Part shown: piece after piece, positions 86-27,140 of the stretch
How positions within the stretch are numbered: position 1 is the stretch's first letter
Layout: every line of letters begins with the position of its first letter
Assembly: GCA_947630575.1 (NCBI GenBank)
Contig: CANRIB010000011.1
Span: 1-32,628 of the forward strand
DNA from: an uncultured Bacilli bacterium
Lineage (GTDB): Bacteria; Bacillota_I; Bacilli_A; RF39; UBA660
Direction of reading: 5' to 3'
DNA length: 32,628 nt
Position numbers and translations under genes: made by a program
The notes under the pieces: model-generated
Databases searched by the model: none
Seen by the model: only the letters and a program-made list of their open reading frames with translations
Told to the model about the DNA's origin: nothing

Positions 86-1651
86 TTACTTCGGTACAAA
101 TGGACTTTCTGATTTTCCTGTCCCTGTAAATTGAGTATCAGCAGAGAGATTTATTACTGGGCGCACACCTAATGCGTTGTTCACAACGTAATTGCCGTTG
201 CCGAGGGAGCCAGAGTTACTCACAATGAACACGCGAGCAAATTGACTAGACCCGAAATTATAAAAGTAAGACGGAGTCATGGTCCAATAATCCTGATGTG
301 TATATAGCCAGTATTTATTATTATTTTGGTTAAAAAAACATCCTGCATATATTGCTTCATCTGAAGTTATTAATCCTACTGGATTTTTTAATTTCTTATT
401 TCCTACTATTGTTCCACTTGATGTTATTACTCCTTTTGAGTTTTGTCCTGTAAATAAATCTCTTGTTGGATTTGCACATTTTAATGATGGTCTTTGAGTT
501 GTATCTGCTTGTTCAGTACCACTTTGCAATAATCTATCCCATGGGGCATATGCTGTTTGGGTAGTTCCTGTACCACCTCCAGGTCCTTTATAACTCCCAT
601 GATCTGCTGCAGATAATCCTCTATCATTACAAAATCCTGTTTCCACATCTATTTTATCTACTTGAGGAGAGGCTCCTAAGTTTGTTTCTGTCCACCAACT
701 ATCTAACTTTCCTTTTATGGAGCTATCTGAAGGATTAGAATCCATAACTACTTGACTACTATCACTATTTGAATTATACATAAATCCTACATATCTATTA
801 TCACTTCGTGTTGAATTAAATGCATTTGTTCCTATCTGAGTTATACTTGTATTTGTTGCAGGAGCAGAAGAACCAGTTCCTGCATATATTAATCTTATTG
901 TTCCATTTCCATTTATTCGGATGATTCTCCACCATATATCGTCACTGCCTTTTTTTCCAAATTTTACCCAGTTATTATCTACTTCTCCTCTAAATACATA
1001 ACTTTTACCATAATCATCCACTGTATCATATATTCCATTTTGTTTCATATTATTTGTTTTACTATCTCCCGAATAACATGTTGTAGTACTAGAACCACAA
1101 CTTGGTCCTGTTACTGTTGTTATTGTTCCAAGAGAATTTCCAAGTTTTAAATTTGCCAATGTCTTTTCTGATGTTGGTTTACTTTCAACATCAAAATATA
1201 AATAACATTTAGTTCCCTGTTTTTTTATACCTTTAAAATTGACTCCACCATTTTCATATCCTATAGTAATACCACTATTATTTCTTTGATTATCAACCAT
1301 ACAATAAGAGTCATAAGTTCCATTACCTAAAGGTTTTAAAGAATATCCAGTTGTAGGAACTGTACCATTAGATGCTTTAGTATAACTATTAGGTTTGCCT
1401 TCATCACCTTGTTTATCTTGCAAATAAACAGCCATCAAATTAAAATCTGCTAATGAATAATTAATATTACCATTAACTATTTGCACACTTTTAGTTACTT
1501 GATATTTTGCTTTGCTATTTGTTATATACATTATTCCTATTGCTAATACTATTATTGTTATAGCTAAAATTATTTTCTTACTTTTCCATTTACTTAACTT
1601 TTCTATTCTCATTAATCTTCCCTTCTTTATAATTGACTTATTATCAATCAT
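86..1651 (-). CDS. Membrane-anchored surface protein with C-terminal variable, lectin-fold-like domain (paralog of 25084..26649)
   Basis: 521-aa ORF; N-terminal TM segment; motifs shared with 25084..26649: VNGN(I/V)xYSLADFNLMA, WWRIIRINGNGTIRLIYAG, PWDRLLQSG, NPVGLITSDE, LGVRPVINL, SPFVP. Confidence 0.85.
   Translation of the reverse strand: MIDNKSIIKKGRLMRIEKLSKWKSKKIILAITIIVLAIGIMYITNSKAKYQVTKSVQIVNGNINYSLADFNLMAVYLQDKQGDEGKPNSYTKASNGTVPTTGYSLKPLGNGTYDSYCMVDNQRNNSGITIGYENGGVNFKGIKKQGTKCYLYFDVESKPTSEKTLANLKLGNSLGTITTVTGPSCGSSTTTCYSGDSKTNNMKQNGIYDTVDDYGKSYVFRGEVDNNWVKFGKKGSDDIWWRIIRINGNGTIRLIYAGTGSSAPATNTSITQIGTNAFNSTRSDNRYVGFMYNSNSDSSQVVMDSNPSDSSIKGKLDSWWTETNLGASPQVDKIDVETGFCNDRGLSAADHGSYKGPGGGTGTTQTAYAPWDRLLQSGTEQADTTQRPSLKCANPTRDLFTGQNSKGVITSSGTIVGNKKLKNPVGLITSDEAIYAGCFFNQNNNKYWLYTHQDYWTMTPSYFYNFGSSQFARVFIVSNSGSLGNGNYVVNNALGVRPVINLSADTQFTGTGKSESPFVPK
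158..277 (-). other. Variable-region-like block (VR1) in the surface protein gene, 40 codons
   Basis: Minus strand reads actccgtcttac...gctcgcgtgttcattgtg...gtgaacaacgcattaggtgtgcgccca; GC-rich codons unlike the flanking gene; shares anchors GTGTTCATTGTG, GTGAACAAC and GGTGTGCGCCCA with 26470..26577. Confidence 0.6.
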
Positions 1652-25083: not shown

Positions 25084-26649
25084 ATGAAATTTGAAACCTT
25101 AAATTCAGGGAAATCGAGGTTTTGGAAACGATTTTGCCTAGGTGCATTCGGCTTTTCCCTTGTTCTAGTTGGATTATTGCTGTTCTATAGGTCATATGCA
25201 AGTTATAGAGTGACGGCAAATGTTCAATTGGTTAATGGAAATGTAAGTTATTCTTTGGCAGATTTTAATTTGATGGCTATTTATTTGGAGCAGAAAGACG
25301 GTTCAGGTAAGGGAAATGGAACGTATAAACTTAGTCCTGACGGGAGCGTTCCATCAACTGGATATAAATTAAAGTCATTAGGTACTAATACTAACGACTC
25401 TTATTGTATGGTAGGTACTACTAAAAATCCTAGTGGATTGGAAATTTCGTACCAAAATGGAGGAGTGAATGTTACTGGTATAAAAAAGCAAGGAACAAAA
25501 TGTTATTTTTATTTTGCAGTTGGAAGTAGTGGAGATCCTGATAGTACATTAGCAAATTTAAAAATAACAAAAATTGATGGAACATTAGCTAGTTCAATAA
25601 CAGGTCCAAGTTGTAAAAGCGATTCTAATAATTGTGGCGGTAGCGGAAACAATATGAAACAGAATGGTGTATTTGAAACAGTGGATGATTATGGAAAAAC
25701 ATATGTATTTAGAGGAACATTGGATAATAACTGGGTCAAATTTGGAAAATTCAAATCTTCAACTACAAATTATAGCAGTGATAATGGTAAAGACATATGG
25801 TGGAGAATTATTAGAATAAATGGTAATGGAACAATTAGATTAATATATGCTGGAGCATATAATTCAGGGAGTACACCAAATAATAATGGAACAAATTTAT
25901 CAATAGGAAATAAAGAATATAATAAGCAGTATGGTGATAACACATACGTAGGATTTACAAATACTGGTGGTACTACAAACAATTATACTGATGCACATAA
26001 AGGAAGTAATGATAGTGACATAAAGAAAGTATTAGATGAATGGTGGACAGATACGAATTTAGGAGAACAAGCTCAAATAGACCATATAGATGATGGCACA
26101 GGATTTTGTAATGATAGAGAACTATCAGAAAAAGCTCATAGTTCATATTTAGGAAAAGGCTCGAATGCAGGATATGGAACTCAACAAACAGCATATGCAC
26201 CATGGGATAGGTTACTACAAAGTGGTAGTACTAGTGCTGCAACAGATCAAAAGCCATCATTAAAATGTACTAACTTAGAAAGAGATTTGTATACAGGACG
26301 GAATGCTAAAGATATAACAACATCAGATGGAAAAACAATAAAAGGAAATAAGAAACTAACAAATCCAGTAGGCTTAATAACAAGTGATGAAGTAGTATTT
26401 GCTGGGGGATATATGTATCAAAATAATACAGAGTATTGGTTATATACAAACCAATATTATTGGACAATGTCTCCGTTTGACTTTAGCAGCGGCTATGCTC
26501 AGGTGTTCATTGTGAATACGAATGGCTACCTCAACAACCACGCGAGCGTGAACAACGCGAACGTCGGTGTGCGCCCAGTAATAAATCTGGAGGCTGATAC
26601 AACATTCACGGGTGGAGGTACAAAAGGTAGCCCATTTGTACCAAGTTAG
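25084..26649 (+). CDS. Membrane-anchored surface protein with C-terminal variable, lectin-fold-like domain
   Basis: 521-aa ORF with N-terminal TM; paralog of 86..1651; C-terminal YYWTMSPFDF...VFIVNTNGYLNNHASVNNANVGVRPVINLEADT. Confidence 0.88.
   Translation: MKFETLNSGKSRFWKRFCLGAFGFSLVLVGLLLFYRSYASYRVTANVQLVNGNVSYSLADFNLMAIYLEQKDGSGKGNGTYKLSPDGSVPSTGYKLKSLGTNTNDSYCMVGTTKNPSGLEISYQNGGVNVTGIKKQGTKCYFYFAVGSSGDPDSTLANLKITKIDGTLASSITGPSCKSDSNNCGGSGNNMKQNGVFETVDDYGKTYVFRGTLDNNWVKFGKFKSSTTNYSSDNGKDIWWRIIRINGNGTIRLIYAGAYNSGSTPNNNGTNLSIGNKEYNKQYGDNTYVGFTNTGGTTNNYTDAHKGSNDSDIKKVLDEWWTDTNLGEQAQIDHIDDGTGFCNDRELSEKAHSSYLGKGSNAGYGTQQTAYAPWDRLLQSGSTSAATDQKPSLKCTNLERDLYTGRNAKDITTSDGKTIKGNKKLTNPVGLITSDEVVFAGGYMYQNNTEYWLYTNQYYWTMSPFDFSSGYAQVFIVNTNGYLNNHASVNNANVGVRPVINLEADTTFTGGGTKGSPFVPS
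26470..26577 (+). other. Variable-region-like block (VR2), 36 codons
   Basis: tctccgtttgactttagcagcggctatgctcaggtgttc...ggtgtgcgccca; near-copy of 26879..26980. Confidence 0.65.
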
Positions 26650-26839: not shown

Positions 26840-26848
26840 TGATATAAT
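26840..26848 (+). promoter_or_regulatory. Extended -10 promoter upstream of the AAC-rich cassette
   Basis: TGATATAAT (TG-N-TATAAT); weak -35 TTGTCG at 26818, 19-nt spacer; no matching ORF downstream. Confidence 0.5.
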
Positions 26849-26878
26849 TAAGAGGGTTAATCTAAAGAATTATGCGAG

Positions 26879-26980
26879 TCTCCGTTTAACTTTAACAGCG
26901 GCTATGCTAACGTGTTCTTTGTGAGAAACGATGGCAACCTCAACAACAACAACGTGAACAACACGTTAGGTGTGCGCCCA
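26879..26980 (+). other. Stand-alone template-repeat-like, AAC-rich cassette (34 codons)
   Basis: tctccgtttaactttaacagcggctatgctaacgtgttctttgtgagaaacgatggcaacctcaacaacaacaacgtgaacaacacgttaggtgtgcgccca; covers only the variable block of the surface genes. Confidence 0.6.
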
Positions 26981-27140
26981 ATATCCTTTTTAAAACTCAT
27001 ATATCTGGTTAAGGCTTGGTATAGTAGAACTAGGATACAAGATTAGTCCAAAGTATTACTTAAATATTTGATACTGATATTTTATATCTTGAATATAAAA
27101 TTATAACAGTATCTTTTTTAGTTTTTGCGTATTTTAGGGC

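Follow-up and report, generated by a model that had tools for sequence, protein, structure and literature searches.

The window analyzed here, a stretch of 32,628 nucleotides, is an entire contig (C11) of the draft genome of a gut Bacilli bacterium (G000; 62 contigs, 1.33 Mb), an assembly that is 92% complete and in which many contig breaks fall at the repeats described below. Two ORFs in the window encode proteins of 521 amino acids, namely, a membrane-anchored surface protein with a variable C-terminal block that belongs to a family of 27 genes (25084..26649, forward strand), and a protein with a weak C-terminal match to DUF6273 (86..1651, reverse strand). The variable repeats (VRs) of these genes span positions 26470..26577 on the forward strand and 158..277 on the reverse strand, respectively. 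Downstream of the first gene lies a segment, 26879-26980 (TCTCCGTTTAAC...GGTGTGCGCCCA), that the first-pass annotation described as an AAC-rich, stand-alone repeat of the upstream gene's variable block. Direct reading of the sequence bears out this description: the translation in the VR frame is SPFNFNSGYANVFFVRNDGNLNNNNVNNTLGVRP, with AAC in all 11 of the 11 asparagine codons, and within the first 24 codons the segment differs from the block at 26470 by 12 substitutions, 7 of these at template adenines, exactly as originally counted. The similarity to 26469-26580 is far above chance (81% identity, E=2e-22).

The segment is embedded in a larger unit on the forward strand. A TATAAT sequence that resembles a -10 promoter box (26843..26848) precedes the GGTTAATC leader (26855..26862), which comparison of the cassettes identifies as the conserved 5' end of the predicted RNA gene and, probably, the region of transcription start. 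The leader is followed by the AAC-rich, non-coding core, the putative template repeat (TR; 26879..26968), in which the VR frame contains no stop, as seen in the sequence itself and in its orthologue in the related genome G019; by the GGTGTGCGCCCA end that comparison of cassettes and VRs shows to be common to the VRs (26969..26980); by a scaffold that was delineated with a covariance model (R1) and from covariation (26979..27117); and, at the 3' end of the scaffold, by a hairpin with a T-run that resembles a Rho-independent terminator (27070..27119, GATACTG...CAGTATCTTTTTT) and in which helices 6 and 7 covary across 87 sequences. The flanks of the segment, called unrelated in the first-pass annotation, are indeed unrelated to those of the VRs but not to those of other cassettes: leader, scaffold and terminator are all kept in 12 further stand-alone copies. 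Farther downstream, just 5' of rpsJ (27302), the segment 27181-27285 matches the S10-Clostridia ribosomal leader at 21.1 bits, below the gathering threshold of 35.1, and is possibly a divergent S10-type leader.

Approximately 36 places in the genome match a 141-nt query built around the window cassette. The copies fall into two classes, 27 that are located near the 3' ends of open target genes, i.e., the VRs, and 13 that lie outside any gene and, unlike the VRs, share the GGTTAATC leader and about 140 nt downstream. The segment is thus not a lone silent copy but belongs to a set of 13 predicted RNA genes, all of which possess a leader, a structured scaffold and a terminator of their own. The whole unit is about 260 nt long and consists of the leader, an AAC-rich core of about 100 nt, a scaffold of about 140 nt and the terminator. 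The leader is present, with at most one mismatch, in 47 of 49 cassettes, and a divergent relative (L063) has the leader-like GGGATAATC/GGGGTAATC. Of 47 cassettes sampled from 4 species, some two thirds contain a TATAAT-like box at a similar distance 5' of the leader; those without this box mostly lie immediately 3' of a host-gene stop codon. Past the common GGTGTGCGCCCA, the cassettes continue with ATATCC, as opposed to GTAATAAA / GTAATAAAT in the VRs, and this end is a candidate counterpart of the IMH*/IMH boundary of diversity-generating retroelements (DGRs). A one-base deletion at the 3' boundary, with GGTGTGCGCCAATATCC in place of GGTGTGCGCCCAATATCC, was observed at C1:8294 in the source genome and at C17:16186, C24:16336, C66:2364 and C34:8118 in G019.

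Several lines of comparative evidence indicate that the scaffold is a structured RNA. In the RNAalifold prediction for the 13 copies of the source genome, double changes occur in 14 pairs, and the R1 model recovers exactly these 13 cassettes (E from 3e-23 to 6e-17), with the next match at E 0.8. Among the 87 R1 matches from about 30 species, 34 of the 38 pairs show changes on both sides, and 95.7% of the cells are paired; the covariation score is 0.441, compared with 0.202 for shuffled and at most 0.096 for slid alignments, and although the alignment was fitted to R1, which favors the structure, the slide control and the count of double changes are well beyond that effect. The structure is visible only in the alignment, folding of single sequences being uninformative (z-scores of -1.15 and 0.23), and no Rfam 15 family matches 26855-27119 even at E<=5. 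In the BPP-1 system, bRT-Avd is recruited, and cDNA synthesis primed, by the spacer (Sp) located 3' of the TR (PMC12875486), and by analogy, the scaffold is the likely counterpart of this spacer. The core appears to be constrained as well: over the last 22 codons, the VR frame is interrupted by stops in none of the 49 cassettes, compared with 43 and 34 in the other two frames. As judged from these features, the copies that stand alone are predicted small RNA genes rather than debris.

The first-pass annotation also recorded that no reverse transcriptase (RT) is present in the window, and this holds for contig C11 but not genome-wide: the search of the whole genome that it proposed finds both a DGR-type RT and an Avd-like gene, on contig C32, and because an RT is present, the scenario of a genome with no RT anywhere, which was envisaged as an argument against a DGR, does not apply. 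A search with the RVT_1 domain detects three RTs, on C51, C18 and C32. As the enzyme responsible for the variation, the C51 protein, a group II intron maturase, and the C18 protein, a UG31-type defence RT, were rejected, both being of the wrong family. The C18 locus (L003, G000:C18:17496-20867) is reported by PADLOC as RT_UG31 (E 3e-85) and adjoins a gene similar to cytosine-5 DNA methyltransferases. The C32 RT (L002:1321-2433; 370 aa; RVT_1 E 1e-22) contains PIGNMTSQ and RYMDDF, that is, the xGxxxSQ motif and the YMDD-type site of the DGR RT clade. The closest solved chain is 8ub7 with its companions (E 3e-27, aligned across GIPIGSLTSQ/RYMDD), which we take to be the BPP-1 DGR enzyme. Models of group II and DRT RTs stay below their cut-offs, where given, and the assignment of the C32 RT to the DGR class is based on the motifs, RVT_1 and the 8ub7 match. 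Upstream of the RT is a bAvd gene (PF22296 at E 4.5e-10, above the cut-off; NCBIfam DivGenRetAVD at E 1.4e-9, below the cut-off), and bAvd adjoins the RT in most congeneric genomes. A VR-bearing target gene is located upstream of the operon. The operon also encodes, 5' of the RT, a 140-aa MutS domain I protein (L002:2754-3176; G000:C32:7489-7911). Relatives of the C32 RT in the public records come mostly from uncultured Bacilli in gut and similar samples; one of them is Candidatus Caccenecus avistercoris.

Cassettes recognized by R1 are present in 32 of 36 congeneric genomes, in up to 25 copies, and are located, among the matches listed, on contigs other than the RT contig. All 24 genomes that have an RT orthologue, intact or decayed, contain cassettes, compared with 8 of the 12 genomes without one (Fisher p 0.008, kinship ignored). 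Cassettes are kept in the RT-less draft genomes G008, G011, G014 and G029; G002, G012 and G021, among others, have neither RT nor cassettes. Weak R1 matches are found in sister genera, in some cases spread over several contigs (G097, G140). Among viral contigs, no sequence matched a scaffold pattern exactly, so that by this strict criterion nothing points to carriage by phages. In the draft assemblies, contigs frequently terminate within or beside VRs and cassettes (e.g., the end of G019:C24, L201), so that the counts of templates and targets are probably underestimates.

The G019 orthologue of the window cassette adjoins the same ribosomal protein genes, with 3 differences in the 93 positions of the core and 13 in the 171 positions of the scaffold. 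In 6 of the 9 orthologous pairs between the two genomes, the core is as conserved as the scaffold or more so (differences at 2-11 of 93 positions vs 13-35 of about 172). In the remaining 3 pairs, the core is replaced, with flanks and scaffold still orthologous, which suggests core exchange between cassettes, i.e., that cores are swapped while the scaffolds stay fixed. These observations bear on the possibility that the cassettes are dead relics, that is, old template copies that were spread by duplication and fell into disuse, the real template being unassembled or the DGR inactive. Some species fit such a picture: in G006:C43, G009:C50, G026:C6 and G030:C47, several in-frame stops disrupt the orthologue of the RT with the cassettes persisting, and the system is apparently decaying there; the 5' part of the core is incomplete in the cassettes C1:7956, C1:72936 and C13:24283 of the source genome, which may be decayed; and the TR cores of an array in G013 look adenine-poor. 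However, covariation over 87 copies from some 30 species, the lack of in-frame stops in all 49 cores and the conservation of most orthologous cores indicate continuing selection on the cassettes, and we consider the relic explanation improbable.

The prospective targets of the cassettes in the source genome are the 27 genes with C-terminal VRs, which encode proteins of 440-670 aa, most of them with an N-terminal membrane anchor, and with DUF6273-like C-termini, although only two of the DUF6273 matches are above the cut-off. The AlphaFold model of a target (pLDDT 86) has no match in the PDB at E<=0.001, fold comparison elsewhere yields only weak matches to DUF6273 phage proteins, and a C-type lectin fold was not identified in the model by fold comparison.

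The differences between the VRs and the cassettes are strongly adenine-directed. With each VR compared to its best-matching cassette under symmetric scoring, a design that is accordingly not independent of the homology search, the mismatch rates in the source genome are 0.46 at A, 0.16 at C, 0.13 at G and 0.13 at T (Fisher OR 5.1, p 1e-59), with the VR C1:100826, which lies within an ORF, counted among the cassettes to small effect. The adenine excess is repeated in G019 (OR 6.0, p 6e-76) and in G015 (OR 10, p 1e-16), and is absent in the reverse direction, with the VRs taken as templates. Together with the RT, bAvd and the many variable targets in the same genome, this pattern supports the early suggestion of a remote-acting DGR template. 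Three VRs on three contigs (C17:9207, C45:198 and C5:66204) fit a single cassette, C1:69438, with 47 mismatches at adenines and 3 elsewhere (p 1.4e-19).

The same pattern weighs against a second explanation, under which the cassettes are silent donors for RecA-type gene conversion without reverse transcription, as in the pilE/pilS and vlsE systems. The likeness to these systems, each with an expressed surface gene and many silent partial copies, is real, and the matching blocks in expressed genes and the mosaic VRs would be expected of gene conversion. However, conversion copies its donor and would not place differences at donor adenines, where mismatches are about threefold more frequent than at other bases; unbiased differences are not what is seen, and the excess vanishes in the reverse direction. 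Furthermore, a DNA donor needs no promoter, leader, covarying RNA scaffold or terminator, and the genome encodes a DGR RT and Avd that track the cassettes across relatives. To our knowledge, the pilE/pilS and vlsE systems involve no adenine-directed mutation, no RT and no RNA scaffold. Gene conversion therefore appears very unlikely as the origin of the variation.

Across all VRs of the source genome, 242 of the 584 mismatches to the best single cassette (about 40%) fall at non-adenine positions and, therefore, many VRs need mosaics, missing cassettes or ordinary drift. Under a copying model, VRs are best fitted by cassettes of their own genome, compared with those of other species (non-adenine mismatch of 0.136 in the source genome, 0.094 in G019 and 0.074 in G015, vs 0.11-0.22 with foreign cassettes), and thus, templates and targets co-change at non-adenine positions within species. 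Direct templating of the VR at 26470-26577 by the neighboring cassette, the pairing considered in the first-pass annotation, was rejected: it leaves 10 adenine and 6 other mismatches, and a mosaic of other cassettes, with segments like C16:22421, C13:24283 and C1:7956, fits better. The VR at 158-277 is assigned by the copying model to C1_8294x38 / C11_26969x77, with mismatches at 17 of 33 adenine and 6 of 63 non-adenine positions, and the 3' halves of this VR and of C38:201 could plausibly have been templated by the window cassette, in both cases with additional drift. Homing that initiates 3' and terminates at variable positions should produce mosaics; cassettes missing from the draft assembly would give the same picture.

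In the usual DGR arrangement, which is not strictly required, the TR is close to the RT, and this is not the case in the source genome: no cassette or TR-like repeat was found on C32 in the kilobases on either side of the RT operon, nor was there an R1 match at the close-RT loci of related genomes, most of which have several kilobases of flank. The least credible alternative is a conventional cis DGR that lost its TR at a contig end or has it on another contig, with the cassettes being an unrelated RNA: the 62-contig draft and the VRs that no single listed cassette explains leave some room for it, but the TR-free flanks at C32 and related loci speak against it, and the cassettes themselves carry a TR that agrees with the VRs at non-adenine positions.

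Taken together, these findings make it very likely that the segment 26879-26980 serves as template repeat in a trans-acting, multicopy DGR in which the template-plus-spacer RNA has become an autonomous gene family. We further consider it probable that the template is fully separated from the RT. It would form a dispersed, expanding guide-like library of as many as 25 units per genome, some of them in tandem, that share a structured handle and have exchangeable cores; the library would be served by a single RT-Avd and act on dozens of surface-protein targets. Under the proposed mechanism, a cassette would be transcribed from its own promoter or by read-through from the preceding gene to give an RNA of about 260 nt that would consist of the GGTTAATC leader, the TR core, the IMH*-like GGTGTGCGCCC(A) and the scaffold of about 140 nt ending in the terminator. 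The scaffold would be bound by RT-Avd and prime cDNA synthesis, as Sp does in BPP-1, and the RNA would be reverse transcribed by the sole RT-Avd complex, encoded on another contig, with errors arising opposite template adenines. The cDNA would then replace the C-terminal VR of any of the approximately 27 surface-protein genes that has a 3' GGTGTGCGCCC(A) block and sufficient 5' homology; different cassettes would supply different targets, and successive events would leave mosaic VRs. The sequences directly establish the cassette family and its RNA structure, the adenine asymmetry, the frame constraint, the RT-Avd operon and its physical separation from the templates. We infer transcription, scaffold binding by RT-Avd, priming, and retrohoming and integration by analogy with BPP-1, and present activity and a role at the cell surface from the sequences themselves.

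The predicted system resembles that of BPP-1 in its DGR-type RT, its bAvd, its AAC-rich TR, the structured RNA of about 140 nt located 3' of the TR, and VRs that lie 3' in the target genes and differ from the TR in an adenine-directed manner. It differs in that BPP-1 has one TR-Sp between avd and brt, whereas the source genome has 13 separate TR-scaffold genes (1-25 per species), none of them at the RT locus. In experimentally characterized DGRs, all components are found at one locus (PMC10907252). Remote targets are known in Treponema denticola (PMC4891356) and Trichodesmium (PMC8867640), and use of a TR in trans by other loci has been deduced for Thiohalocapsa PB-PSB1 (PMC10907252). In these three organisms, as in the system proposed here, targets at other genomic sites are served by one RT/TR, but their TR still resides in the DGR locus with the RT, whereas here the template RNA itself is detached from that locus, present in many copies and organized in arrays. 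Systems with more than one TR, another shared feature, were reported for 55 of 271 multi-VR DGRs (PMC6642488). Thus, use of the TR in trans, remote targets and multiple TRs are already known, and what appears to be new is the dispersed family of stand-alone template RNA genes; in the open papers searched, we found no description of such a dispersed family, of a covarying scaffold common to its members or of arrays distant from the RT. Published surveys sought repeats around the RT and, by their own account, would miss remote targets (PMC8144416); therefore, they would undercount systems whose templates are detached.

The minimal unit that RT-Avd must recognize is delimited by a template RNA that stands alone and has a conserved handle, so that the RNA part that recruits the enzyme and primes cDNA becomes directly testable. 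The arrangement also offers a way for a bacterium with just 1.3 Mb of DNA to maintain about 27 hypervariable surface proteins, with template alleles that are kept separate. Divergent related Bacilli encode RTs and Avd proteins homologous to those of the source genome next to templates in cis, unlike the arrangement in the source genome. One of these loci (L071) has a single cis TR, with VR mismatches at 14 adenines and at no other base; another (G036:C8, L261) has one TR after its RT; and L063 has four tandem cis cassettes 5' of Avd and RT, which share the leader and scaffold with the source-genome cassettes by the R1 model, and the third of which matches a VR with 5 adenine mismatches and 1 other. 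The RTs without a cis cassette form a single, monophyletic clade (support 100/100) in a tree in which the row of G036 (670 aa, very long branch) was disregarded. The layouts of L071, G036 and L063 look like ancestral and intermediate forms in a natural series that starts with a single template in cis, passes through a tandem array in cis and ends with a dispersed library acting in trans. In G013:C20 (L257), 12 cassettes form a tandem array with cores that look AAC-poor, as if already mutated; this array could be either a diversified template library or a product of decay.
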